Of a DNA stretch of 64,000 nt, positions 10,995 to 37,035 are shown in pieces. Below the pieces are notes generated by a model, which was not told where the DNA came from, made no database searches, and saw nothing but the letters and a program-made list of their open reading frames with translations. Within the stretch, counting starts at the first letter, position 1; each line of letters begins with the position of its first letter. The translations under genes were made by a program, and so were the position numbers. This stretch comes from an uncultured Porphyromonadaceae bacterium (lineage in GTDB: Bacteria > Bacteroidota > Bacteroidia > Bacteroidales > Muribaculaceae): the NCBI GenBank assembly GCA_947177635.1, contig CAMWVQ010000001.1, positions 80,640 to 144,639 on the forward strand. The letters are read 5' to 3'.

Positions 10995-12353
10995 TCACTC
11001 GGCCAGGTCGCATATCAGCGTGGCCGAGGATGCGTCGCGGACAATCACCTTCACCAGGTCGCCTGTATGGTAGTCGCCCCGGGGGAAGACACAGGTCTTG
11101 TTCTGCTGTGTACGTCCCACCCACTGGTCGGTGCTGCGTTTCGACACACCCTCTACAAGCACCTCGAACACCTTGCCGATGTCGCGGCGGTTAGACTCCG
11201 CTGAGAGACGGTTCTGAAGGGCAATCATACGGTTCAGTCGGTCAATCTTCACATCCTCAGGGACATTGTCAGGCATGGTGCGCGCCGCCAGAGTGCCCGG
11301 ACGCTCCGAGTACTTGAACATGAAGGATGAATCAAACGCGGCCTCCTCCATCAGCGAAAGGGTCTGCTGGAAATCCTCCTCGGTCTCATCGTGGAATCCG
11401 GTGAAAAGGTCTGATGATATGCCGCAATCAGGGATGCGGCTGCGGATGGCCGCGACGCGCCCCAGATACCACTCACGTGTGTATTTGCGGTTCATCGCCT
11501 TCAACACGCTGTCTGAACCTGACTGTACCGGCAGATGGACGTGGTTGCAGATGTTGGGATAACGGGCGATAACATCTATCGTGTTGTCACTCATATCCTT
11601 GGGATGGGAAGTTGTGAACCTGATTCGCATATCGGGAGCCGCGAGGGCAACGAGCTCAAGGAGGCGCGGGAAGTCGACCTCGTCACACCCCTCGGCGGCG
11701 TATTTGGCCGCCTCATCCCCTTTGTAACGGTAAGAGTTGACATTCTGCCCCAAAAGGGTCACCTCGCGGAAACCGCGCTCGCGCAGGTCGGCAACCTCGT
11801 TGAGGATGCTTCCGGTTTCTCGGCTGCGCTCGCGTCCCCTGGTGTAAGGCACGATACAGTATGAGCAGAAGTTGTTGCAGCCGCGCATGATGCTGACAAA
11901 GCCGCTCACGCGGTTGCCTCCGATACGCGAAGGTATCACGTCGCGATAGGTCTCGGTGGTGCTGAGTTCCACATTTATCGCTTTCTGGCCGGCCTCCACG
12001 GCCGCGAAGAGGTTGGGAAGGTCGAGATAGGCGTCAGGGCCCGCCACGAGGTCCACCCCGTGGTGCTCGATCAGAGAGTCCCTTACGCGCTCGGCCATAC
12101 AGCCGATGACTCCAAGTATCAGCCGACCCGACTTCTTGCGGCGCAATGAGGCGAGATACTGCAGGCGGTTGACAATCTTCTGCTCGGCGTTGTCACGTAT
12201 CGAGCAGGTGTTCAGCAATATCGCGTCTGCCTCCTCTGGGGCTGAGGCCTGGATGTAGCCACAGACCCCGAGAATCGAGGCCACAACCTCGCTGTCGGCC
12301 ACATTCATCTGGCAACCGTAGGTCTCTATGAAGAGTTTCTTGTCTTTTTCCAT
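10995..12353 (-). CDS. miaB: tRNA (N6-isopentenyl adenosine(37)-C2)-methylthiotransferase
   Basis: YGCQMNVADSE, radical-SAM GCNNFCSYCIVPYTRGRERSR, TRAM-like C-terminus. Confidence 0.93.
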   Translation of the reverse strand: MEKDKKLFIETYGCQMNVADSEVVASILGVCGYIQASAPEEADAILLNTCSIRDNAEQKIVNRLQYLASLRRKKSGRLILGVIGCMAERVRDSLIEHHGVDLVAGPDAYLDLPNLFAAVEAGQKAINVELSTTETYRDVIPSRIGGNRVSGFVSIMRGCNNFCSYCIVPYTRGRERSRETGSILNEVADLRERGFREVTLLGQNVNSYRYKGDEAAKYAAEGCDEVDFPRLLELVALAAPDMRIRFTTSHPKDMSDNTIDVIARYPNICNHVHLPVQSGSDSVLKAMNRKYTREWYLGRVAAIRSRIPDCGISSDLFTGFHDETEEDFQQTLSLMEEAAFDSSFMFKYSERPGTLAARTMPDNVPEDVKIDRLNRMIALQNRLSAESNRRDIGKVFEVLVEGVSKRSTDQWVGRTQQNKTCVFPRGDYHTGDLVKVIVRDASSATLICDLAE

Positions 12354-29292: not shown

Positions 29293-30105
29293 TCACCAAG
29301 GCTTGCCGGTCTGACGCTGGCGCGACTGCTTCTCCTGGTTCTGCTTCATCTGCTCGACCTTCATTCTTGTGGCCGACTCCTTGTCGTCCATAGCCTTCAG
29401 AATCTGAGCCGCGCTTTGTTCGCTCAGGCCACCCTGCTGTTGCTGCTGCTGTTGTTGCTGTTGTTGCTGCTTGTCCTGGTCCTGCTGATCTTTGTTCTGA
29501 TCCTGCTGGTCCTGGTTCTGCTGCTGTTGCTGCTGATCCTGGTTTTGATCCTGATTCTGGTCCTGCTTGTCATTGTTGTCCTGGTTCTGGTCTTGCTCCT
29601 GTTTTTTAAGCTGGGCCAGACGCAGGTTCTCGCGGGCCTGGTTGTTCTCGGGATTACGTCGCAGCGCATTCTTGTACATCTCTATCGCCGAGGCATAATT
29701 CTCACCCTTGTAGGCGATGTTGCCACGGTCATAGAAAGACAGCTCGGCAAGTTCCACATCAGGGTTGCCCGCCGTGGTGGCGAGAATCTGATCGGCCTGT
29801 TTTATGAGCGAGTCACCCTTGTTTGAAAGGTCTTCACCCCTCTGCTTGAGATATGAGGATGCGAGGTTGAACTGCGCACGGGCATTGTCGGGATTCTCTC
29901 CGAGTGCTTTCTTGAAATTCACCTCAGCCTCGGCGTAACGCTGCTTGTCGAAGAGGCTCTTGCCATCCTTCATATAGTTGCGTTCGCGCTTGGTGGATGG
30001 ACGCGCCGCACCGGTGGATTCCTCTTTCGAGGAGCATCCGGCCACAACGCCTCCCGTCACCATGACGGCTACGGAAATCGCTAATATCTTTAAGAACTGC
30101 TTCAT
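29293..30105 (-). CDS. batC: BatC: TPR lipoprotein with Q/N/D-rich tract
   Basis: Lipobox VVAGCSS; TPRs; LSEQSAAQILKAMDDKESATRMKVEQMKQ C-terminus. Confidence 0.85.
   Translation of the reverse strand: MKQFLKILAISVAVMVTGGVVAGCSSKEESTGAARPSTKRERNYMKDGKSLFDKQRYAEAEVNFKKALGENPDNARAQFNLASSYLKQRGEDLSNKGDSLIKQADQILATTAGNPDVELAELSFYDRGNIAYKGENYASAIEMYKNALRRNPENNQARENLRLAQLKKQEQDQNQDNNDKQDQNQDQNQDQQQQQQNQDQQDQNKDQQDQDKQQQQQQQQQQQQGGLSEQSAAQILKAMDDKESATRMKVEQMKQNQEKQSRQRQTGKPW
29433..29605 (-). repeat. Low-complexity Q/N/D-coding tract in batC
   Basis: Encodes QEQDQNQDNNDKQDQNQDQNQDQQQQQQNQDQQDQNKDQQDQDKQQQQQQQQQQQQ. Confidence 0.9.
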
Positions 30106-34154: not shown

Positions 34155-35150
34155 TCAGGGAACGACCACCTTGTCGAGGATTTCCGAAATAATCTCGTCG
34201 GCGGAGATGTTGTTTGCCTCAGCCTCGTAGGTAAGGCCGATGCGGTGGCGCATCACATCGTGGCATACCGCACGGACATCCTCGGGGATTACATACCCGC
34301 GCTGACGCAGGAATGCGTAGGCCTTTGCGGCACGGGCCAGGGAGATTGACGCACGGGGTGATGCCCCGAAAGCGATGATGCTCTGCAGTTCGGGCAGCCC
34401 GCATTCGGCGGGGAAACGGGTGGCGAACACGATGTCGACGATGTAACGCTCGATTTTCTCGTCGATGTAGATTTTCTCCACCACCTGCTGGGCGTCGATT
34501 ATATCTTCCGGGCGCAGCAGGGGCTGCACCTTTGTCTTCTTGTTGGATAGGTTCTGGCGTATGATGAGTTTCTCCTCCTCGCGTGTGGGATAACCGATCA
34601 CCACTTTCAGGAGGAAACGGTCAACCTGCGCCTCAGGCAGGGGATATGTACCCTCCTGCTCGATGGGGTTCTGGGTCGCCATTACCAGGAAAGGCTCGTC
34701 GAGGGGGAAGGTGTGGTCGCCGATGGTCACCTGGCGCTCCTGCATGGCCTCAAGCAACGCGGCCTGAACCTTGGCGGGAGCACGGTTGATTTCATCAGCC
34801 AGGACGAAGTTGGCGAATATCGGGCCGCGCTTCACCTGGAACTGCTCAGACTTCACGCTGTAGACCATCGTACCGGTCACGTCGGCGGGAAGGAGGTCGG
34901 GGGTGAACTGGATGCGGCTGTATTTTGCGTCAATCAGCTGGGAGAGGGTCTTGATGGCCAAAGTCTTGGCAAGACCGGGCACACCTTCGAGAAGGACGTG
35001 TCCGTTGGAGAGCAACGCGATGAGGAGGGATTCCACGAGGTGCTTCTGGCCGACAATCGTCTGGTCCATACCCTGCGTGATCAGGCTTACAAAGTTGTTG
35101 CGGCTGGCCACGAGGTCGTTGAGTTCTCTGATATTTACAGTTTCACTCAT
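34155..35150 (-). CDS. MoxR family AAA+ ATPase
   Basis: HVLLEGVPGLAKTLAIKTL Walker A, DEINRAPAKVQAALLEAMQE Walker B, ATQNPIEQEGTYPLPEAQVDRF. Confidence 0.95.
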   Translation of the reverse strand: MSETVNIRELNDLVASRNNFVSLITQGMDQTIVGQKHLVESLLIALLSNGHVLLEGVPGLAKTLAIKTLSQLIDAKYSRIQFTPDLLPADVTGTMVYSVKSEQFQVKRGPIFANFVLADEINRAPAKVQAALLEAMQERQVTIGDHTFPLDEPFLVMATQNPIEQEGTYPLPEAQVDRFLLKVVIGYPTREEEKLIIRQNLSNKKTKVQPLLRPEDIIDAQQVVEKIYIDEKIERYIVDIVFATRFPAECGLPELQSIIAFGASPRASISLARAAKAYAFLRQRGYVIPEDVRAVCHDVMRHRIGLTYEAEANNISADEIISEILDKVVVP

Positions 35151-35351
35151 AAGTTTTTATAGTTGGTTTTGTTATTATGCAAATTTGACAAATGGAGAAC
35201 CGGATTCCCGGCCCTGCAAAGCATTCAAGGCTCGGGAGCGGTTTACAATGCAAATGTATGGAAACAAAACAGGTAAACGTTAAAACAGAGTGTTAAATTT
35301 ATCTATCAACCGTTTACCTCTTTTAAGATTTAATCATTTTTAAGCAAAAAA

Positions 35352-36647
35352 CTACTCTGACAGAGCCTTGTAAGACTCACGGTCGGCATTGCGCAGCGAC
35401 TCTTTGCTGGCGGGGTCTATGCCGTATTTGGAGGCAGGAGGAATGACCAGCACCATCCCGTTCTCGAGATTGTCGGGGTCACGGATTTTGTCTTTGTTCT
35501 CAAGGTAAATGTAAACCCAGAATTTCGCGTTGCCATAATGACGGCGCGCCATAACCGAGAGGTAATTGCCCGGCCTGACGGTGTCTGTCACCACCTCCGG
35601 CACAGCAGCGGGGGGAGTCGTCTCCACAACAGCCACGGCAGTGTCAGTCAAGTTTACGTCGTCTGAGGGGACAACCGTCTCTACGGAATCTGATTCGGCA
35701 TCACAGCCGGCTTCACCGGCCCCATCATCAACCACGCTGCCCGCGTTATGGCGGATGAGAATCCCATCCTCCAATACTTCAACGTTTGCAGGCATCCCAA
35801 TGTTTGAATACCTGTAAGCGAGATACCCTGCGACAAGTCCGAGAAGACACGCGGCAATGGCCGTCACCACCAAAGTGAGGGTGGTGTGCCCCACCCGTTT
35901 GATTGTAACACGGCTCTCCGGCTCAAGCCTCACGGCAACGGGAGAATCATATCCCTGTTGCGCAACCGGTTGTTGTGCGGGCATATGCATCACCGGCTCA
36001 ACTACCTGAGGAGCGGGAGCGGATGGAGCGACTGGGGGAGTCGTCGATTGGGAGGGAGAGGTATTGGCGGAAACCACCTTTTTGCCTCCGGTGAAACGTG
36101 GAGGCAGTGGCGGAGGGGTAGACACCTCCGGTTCGGCTATAATTTCCGGCTCAGCTTCCACCGGCGCATCAGCAATCTCCGCTTGCTGGTTCTGAACATC
36201 GACAGCAGTCTCATCCGCCTCCGAGGCAGTGACAGCCACCTCTGAATCAACAGCATTTTCCTCTGATTCAGCGATTTCCTCAGCCGTAGGCTCCGGAAGC
36301 ACCGGTTCCTCCACTGCGGTCTCTGCCTGCGAGTCGAAGAAACTGTCAAGCTCTTCATCTGTCAATGATTCGGCGACCTCGACTGACTCAAACATCGCGA
36401 ATGGCTCGTTGACCTTAGCGGCCAACGAGGTCTCCGGAGCGAAATCAACTGTCGGATTTCCGTCGACATCTGATGAAACTTTGAACACACCGAGACCTTC
36501 GACCCTGACAACGCCGTCGGCTGTCAGCCCCTGGGTCACGACAACAGAGAATTCTTTCAGGAACGCCCCGGCGACATCGTCGCCACAATTCACCCTCGAC
36601 GCGAGCCGGGTGATTATCTCTGGCATAGGTATCGTGGACGCGCTCAT
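35352..36647 (-). CDS. HU-domain / transmembrane / LysM-domain protein
   Basis: N-terminal HU/IHF-like MPEIITRLASRVNCGDDVAGAFLKEFSVVVTQGLTADGVVRVEGLGVFKV; acidic linker; TM LTLVVTAIAACLLGLVAGYLAY; C-terminal LysM-like RPGNYLSVMARRHYGNAKFWVYIYLENKDKIRDPDNLENGMVLVIPP. Confidence 0.75.
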   Translation of the reverse strand: MSASTIPMPEIITRLASRVNCGDDVAGAFLKEFSVVVTQGLTADGVVRVEGLGVFKVSSDVDGNPTVDFAPETSLAAKVNEPFAMFESVEVAESLTDEELDSFFDSQAETAVEEPVLPEPTAEEIAESEENAVDSEVAVTASEADETAVDVQNQQAEIADAPVEAEPEIIAEPEVSTPPPLPPRFTGGKKVVSANTSPSQSTTPPVAPSAPAPQVVEPVMHMPAQQPVAQQGYDSPVAVRLEPESRVTIKRVGHTTLTLVVTAIAACLLGLVAGYLAYRYSNIGMPANVEVLEDGILIRHNAGSVVDDGAGEAGCDAESDSVETVVPSDDVNLTDTAVAVVETTPPAAVPEVVTDTVRPGNYLSVMARRHYGNAKFWVYIYLENKDKIRDPDNLENGMVLVIPPASKYGIDPASKESLRNADRESYKALSE

Positions 36648-36931
36648 TTCCGTGGATCCTCCGAAATCCCTTTCTTAAGCCTTCCGGCAGGTGTGAATTC
36701 CAGTTCTATGGCGGGGGGAAGCAGCACGCGTCGCCCCGTGGAGAGGTCTCTGACCACTGCCTCCTTACGCTTGATGCCCTGAAAGGAACCCAACGACGGG
36801 AGCGCCAGCCGGTTGAGGTTTCCACACTCCTCCCCTATCACCCCGACGAATCCTTCCAGCAGCTTTTCAGCCGTGGAGGTCTCAAGGTTGAGGCGCTTAG
36901 CCATTATATTTATGAATTGTCTGCTGTCCAA
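36644..36931 (-). CDS. HU-family DNA-binding protein
   Basis: DSRQFINIMAKRLNLETSTAEKLLEGFVGVIGEECGNLNRLALPSLGSFQGIKRKE is HU-like. TTG start at 36931 inferred (ATG at 36904 possible). ATGA overlap with the next gene. Confidence 0.7.
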   Translation of the reverse strand: MDSRQFINIMAKRLNLETSTAEKLLEGFVGVIGEECGNLNRLALPSLGSFQGIKRKEAVVRDLSTGRRVLLPPAIELEFTPAGRLKKGISEDPRK

Positions 36932-36948: not shown

Positions 36949-36956
36949 CAAAGTTA
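36949..36956 (-). promoter_or_regulatory. Putative -7 box TAACTTTG for the HU / HU-LysM operon
   Basis: Minus-strand TAACTTTG 17 nt upstream of the proposed TTG start. Confidence 0.5.
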
Positions 36957-37035
36957 ATAAAATTCCACCAAAAAACCGCGCCGACTCCCAAAAGAATCGG
37001 CGCGGATGAGATATCAGGTAATCAGACGTCAGCTA

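Follow-up and report, generated by a model that had tools for sequence, protein, structure and literature searches.

A conserved pair of HU-fold proteins, one carrying a transmembrane helix and a LysM fold, as a candidate connection between DNA and envelope in Bacteroidota

Can a bacterium hold its chromosome to its envelope by means of one small protein complex? To our knowledge, no single DNA-to-cell-wall complex has been demonstrated in bacteria, and the question is raised by two overlapping genes in the stretch of 64,000 nucleotides analysed here (the window), which comes from an uncultured Porphyromonadaceae bacterium of the gut, with a Bacteroidales genome whose relatives are Muribaculaceae and comparable uncultured members of the order. 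One encodes a short HU protein (HU1), and the other a membrane protein (HU2-TM-LysM) in which an HU fold (HU2) is followed by a disordered linker of 170 residues, one transmembrane (TM) helix, a further linker and a LysM fold. An earlier note on this DNA had claimed two overlapping minus-strand reading frames; both were found at that place, and the HU1 start at 36931 coincides with the end that the note had given (Table 1).

Table 1. Features of the HU1/HU2-TM-LysM locus (window coordinates)
Feature	Position	Strand	Remarks
HU1 (short HU), 95 aa	36644..36931	−	TTG start; HU fold, intact beta-arm, conserved PP motif
HU2-TM-LysM membrane protein, 431 aa	35352..36647	−	ATG start inside HU1 stop
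Armless HU domain + LAxxVNxPFxxFExVEL extension, aa 1-95 of HU2-TM-LysM	36363..36647	−	
Single transmembrane helix, aa 255-281 of HU2-TM-LysM	35805..35885	−	
Kbp-type LysM fold, about aa 353-406 of HU2-TM-LysM	35430..35591	−	
Bacteroidetes-type -7 box TAACTTTG, 5' of HU1	36949..36956	−	Direct reading
Intrinsic-terminator-like hairpin + T-run, 3' of gdh	36971..37004 (approximate)	−	-24.7 kcal/mol
TACATTTG box, 5' of moxR	35251..35258	−	
MoxR AAA+ ATPase, first gene of moxR-bat operon	34155..35150	−	Conserved downstream neighbour

The stop codon of HU1 and the ATG of HU2-TM-LysM share four bases (ATGA), and the same offset of −4, judged by domain start, is the commonest among homologues (42 cases, followed by −8 in 14 and −11 in 10), which fits the translational coupling suggested earlier. 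Most relatives have an ATG where the window HU1 has its TTG codon, followed by similar MDxKQF-like residues (MDNRQF/MDSKQ), and since the proteins of these relatives begin at that codon, TTG 36931 was taken as the start. The TAACTTTG box lies 18 bases upstream of it, and the terminator-like hairpin stands between the upstream gdh gene and the pair. Together with the second box in front of moxR, these signals make the two HU genes look like an operon of their own, and the TACATTTG box probably provides the moxR-bat operon with a separate promoter. Across the window as a whole, TANNTTTG boxes were over-represented (30 against 16.8 expected), as fits Bacteroidetes promoters.

HU1 is readily recognised as a member of the HU/IHF family, matching the Pfam profile Bac_DNA_binding (PF00216) with an E-value of 3.5e-12 and 46.8 bits, against a gathering score of 22.4. 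Its AlphaFold model, made with the family alignment as input, reached a mean pLDDT of 90 and matched HU and IHF crystal structures in Foldseek with E-values down to 5e-7. The beta-arm was kept in the HU1 homologues scored (n = 114), with approximately 5.6 lysine or arginine residues per 24 arm residues, a PP motif in 113 of the 114 and an invariant glutamate. The charge of the domain averages +5.8, and is +4 in the window. The arm tip of the window HU1 reads RDLSTG instead of NPxTG and lacks the arm-tip proline, the DNA-bending residue in HU and IHF, which suggests that this HU1 may bend DNA more weakly. Loss of the arm from both HU domains across homologues had been named beforehand as an outcome that would refute the reading of this pair, and the arm kept by the HU1 homologues scored speaks against such a loss.

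The membrane protein was modelled by AlphaFold, again from the family alignment, as three confident parts separated by disorder, namely the HU body (aa 8–71), the TM helix (at high confidence) and the LysM fold (about aa 353–402). The HU2 domain of the window is a divergent one, reaching only E = 0.004 and 17.8 bits against PF00216, which is under the gathering score, while other members of the family match with E-values down to 7e-23. Its predicted fold nevertheless resembles E. coli HU, with a TM-score of 0.78–0.84 depending on the target in Foldseek, so that the HU fold claimed for both proteins is borne out. A conserved VNxPFxxFE motif comes after the fold, the DNA-binding arm is absent and the domain is acidic (charge −8). 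The proposal that a single chain combines a DNA-binding fold with a LysM thus holds for the HU fold and needs correction for DNA binding, as the membrane-bound HU domain of this species is armless and acidic and contact with DNA would have to be made by HU1.

At the other end of the protein, the Pfam LysM profile (PF01476) was not reached by the window HU2-TM-LysM, while the NCBIfam LysM model PRK11198 matched all 29 members compared (the window protein at 4.6e-7), with scores under the cut-off set for that model. The predicted fold superposes on the LysM of Kbp with 1.2 Å over about 53 columns at 36% identity (AlphaFold/Foldseek), and a profile search with the LysM alignment as query matched the Kbp chain at 4.5e-10. 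The LysM-like C-terminus that the earlier note had read is accordingly of the extended YG...W..IY..N...DP...PG..V.IP subtype seen in Kbp/YgaU (PRK11198) and LipL71, and is the best-conserved part of the protein (57% mean column identity). Kbp is a BON-LysM protein with neither an HU domain nor a TM helix, whereas here the LysM forms the C-terminal, predicted periplasmic, end of an HU protein that has such a helix. The same LysM subtype also ends outer-membrane-type proteins at three other loci (L143, L162 and L167), with OmpA confirmed by Pfam in L143 and assigned by reading in the other two.

The single hydrophobic helix described from the first reading was predicted in the window and recurs between HU and LysM in all 138 homologues (138 distinct HU-TM-LysM proteins after removal of duplicates). 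Counting lysine and arginine within 15 residues of the helix gave higher numbers on the HU side in 106 of these, equal numbers in 19 and lower ones in 13, in agreement with the proposed topology in which the HU end is inside. The LysM is likely to be periplasmic.

How widely the arrangement is conserved was assessed among relatives at several distances. The search of close relatives found HU2-TM-LysM in 39 of 61 genomes, comprising 13 of the 14 genomes of the genus and 22 of the 23 from other genera of the family, with a patchy distribution in the order beyond that family. Across the order, the LysM module was present in 78 of 295 genomes (51 of 184 genera), and inspection of the loci placed an HU domain in the LysM-bearing chain in about 52 of those 78 genomes, from about 19 families; in a phylum-wide sample, most LysM matches were generic. 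Such conservation over many genera rules out a chance occurrence. The neighbourhood survey that had been proposed found HU1 directly upstream in 127 of the 138 homologues, six further proteins being natural single-chain HU1-HU2-TM-LysM fusions and only five being unpaired, two of them at contig ends. An overlapping HU1/HU2 pair was likewise present in all 14 loci examined from family f143, which belongs to a different class of the phylum, and the idea of a purely local curiosity was consequently rejected. Three contigs titled Paenibacillus, Staphylococcus and Lachnospiraceae (L110, L119 and L125) carry Bacteroidales-type HU-LysM/moxR-bat loci and are probably mislabelled metagenome-assembled genomes.

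A tree of 98 HU domains, which is built on few columns and leaves many inner forks open, separated HU1 from HU2 with 99/99 support. The HU1 side holds the short proteins and the first domains of the tandem and distant proteins, together with the canonical HU of the genome, and the HU2 side holds the membrane proteins and the second domains of the tandem and distant ones. This division is clear and indicates that the two subunits probably share a common inheritance dating from before the split of the classes. The HU2 domains carry an average charge of −4.9 and have kept the arm in 71 and lost it in 59 of the 130 scored (a loss of about 45%), with about 11 changes of state on the best tree. In the distant class the arm of HU2 is complete and of NPQTGE type, which makes a secondary loss in the clade of the window probable. 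In the window species, contact with DNA is expected to come from HU1, since it keeps both arm and charge while HU2 is armless and acidic. There is a hint that the two domains change in step, as presence of the HU2 arm went with presence of the proline at the arm tip of HU1 (Fisher p = 2e-18 for 64/1/12/37, raw counts that ignore kinship); with relatedness allowed for, five independent pairs on starred branches remained, which never ran in the opposite direction and did not reach significance.

Taken together, these observations lead to a model in which HU1 and the HU2 domain would be the two halves of an obligate cytoplasmic heterodimer; IHF and HU-alpha/beta are heterodimers as well. HU1 would hold DNA through its basic beta-arm, which HU1 alone keeps in the window species, while the armless and acidic HU2 would serve as the dimerisation half and continue through the flexible linker into the inner-membrane helix. 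The periplasmic LysM would bind peptidoglycan, and the complex could in this way anchor the nucleoid, or a region of DNA, to the envelope. We assign this reading as a whole, a heterodimer that anchors DNA to the envelope through the helix and the LysM, a probability of just under 0.6. The heterodimer itself, already considered in the earlier note, is a good deal safer, and we regard it as likely from the natural fusions, the co-inheritance, the pairing of the genes and the two mirror-image HU lineages, all of them strong though indirect indications. The folds and their order along the chains, the helix, the gene pairs, the fusions and the conservation are established here by prediction and comparison. 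Peptidoglycan binding and the DNA-to-wall tether are reasonable proposals, for which the main cautions are the Kbp-like character of the LysM and two loci from the family of the window, L177 (G021:C3) and L178 (G036:C23), that retain HU1 and HU2-TM and have no LysM. The existence of these loci indicates that the wall end is dispensable. Their membrane frames, of 285 and 251 aa, end directly after the TM helix and are sited upstream of moxR-bat. The wider proposition, that a transmembrane HU heterodimer couples nucleoid to peptidoglycan across much of the Bacteroidota, is tentative, and we would give it a little less than an even chance.

The genomic neighbourhood brings in a different role for the pair. 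With split genes, the usual order is ftsY–rimO–HU1–HU2-TM-LysM–moxR–bat, and the six fusions also adjoin rimO, four of them lying directly upstream of moxR as the split genes do. HU2-TM-LysM might then sense the wall or envelope and capture or release HU1 as a regulator, plausibly of moxR-bat, with no structural tether at all. The proximity of moxR (which in 81 of the 135 readable loci follows on the same strand at no more than 800 bp), its own promoter-like box, the armless and acidic HU2 of the window and the moxR synteny retained by the LysM-less relatives would all suit such a regulator. However, no moxR is adjacent in the other 54 loci, none was found near the pair at the distant-class loci examined, and single targets are rare among HU proteins. 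A constant association of the pair with moxR-bat was thus rejected, and regulation of bat is not its general role given the 54 loci and the distant class without a neighbouring moxR. We consider the regulator rather unlikely.

Less probable still is a scaffold function, in which HU2 would be a protein-protein scaffold with no part in DNA binding, HU1 a cytoplasmic adaptor, and the complex an organiser of envelope or division proteins. A protein-protein scaffold role has been proposed for CCDC81 HU domains, and the repeated losses of the HU2 arm, the extra VNxPFxxFE motif and the missing arm-tip proline of the window HU1 could be read in the same way, but HU1 retains its arm and basic charge, and about half of the HU2 domains, as well as those of the distant class, have kept theirs. 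We judge it highly improbable that both ends of the membrane protein lie on the same side, or that its LysM binds ions or proteins instead of peptidoglycan, as in Kbp or phage baseplates. The nearest solved LysM structures are indeed those of Kbp, which binds potassium and is no wall protein, and of phage tail and baseplate proteins; against this stand the universal TM helix with its positive-inside bias, the sharing of the subtype with an OmpA-type outer-membrane protein, and a parallel protein of the window genome that has SPOR at the same position.

The anchoring model finds its closest counterpart in this parallel protein, a tandem HU-HU-TM-SPOR (PF18174, PF18175, SPOR) encoded elsewhere in the genome (L213; G000:C31, about 11174-12076). 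Burroughs et al. reportedly described HU-CCDC81_bac_1/_2-TM-SPOR proteins of Bacteroidetes in 2017, which we take to be the combination PF18174 + PF18175 + PF05036. The order of the parts is the same in both systems, a first and a second HU domain being followed by a single TM helix and then, at the C-terminus, a domain of peptidoglycan-binding type, and by reading the arms also correspond, with a PP arm in the first HU and a short second HU without an arm. The window module differs in having LysM and not SPOR, and in its separate, full-length HU1; tandem HU domains in one chain occur in the HU-CCDC81_bac-SPOR proteins and in the six fused relatives, in contrast to the split genes of the window. 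Several HU1 homologues match PF18174 and several HU2 homologues PF18175, weakly (18 of 29 relatives at E ≤ 1, best 1.6e-6 and 3.2e-6), while neither window protein matched either profile at E ≤ 1. HU-LysM cannot be the same gene as HU-SPOR, as the window genome has both and its SPOR matches lie elsewhere. Because the family tests failed, the LysM replaces SPOR and HU1 is split off, we regard HU-LysM as a parallel variant and not as a member of the HU-CCDC81_bac-SPOR family. Its distribution is also far narrower, as almost every genome of the order has PF18174 (256 of 291). Compared with canonical HU/IHF (PF00216), the fold is shared, as are the complete arm and basic charge in HU1, while the window HU2 departs in being armless, acidic and membrane-anchored and HU1 in the PP motif and invariant glutamate of its arm.

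Literature searches found no published description of an HU-LysM protein, although a 2017 paper on HU clades, which lay outside them, may mention LysM. HU1/HU2-TM-LysM is a small and testable candidate, consisting of two genes that are conserved as a pair, occur naturally fused and encode clearly bounded domains. Together with HU-SPOR it suggests that at least two parallel kinds of HU-fold protein may link chromosome and envelope in Bacteroidota, a point of relevance to nucleoid positioning in lineages that the E. coli and Bacillus systems leave unexplained.

The bat region of the window gave Pfam matches to a MoxR-type AAA protein, DUF58/VWA, BatD (weak), two BatA-type VWA proteins and one TPR protein. 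A TPR lipoprotein-like gene of this operon, at 29293-30105, contains a long tract rich in Gln, Asn and Asp (QNQDQNQDQQQQ...).
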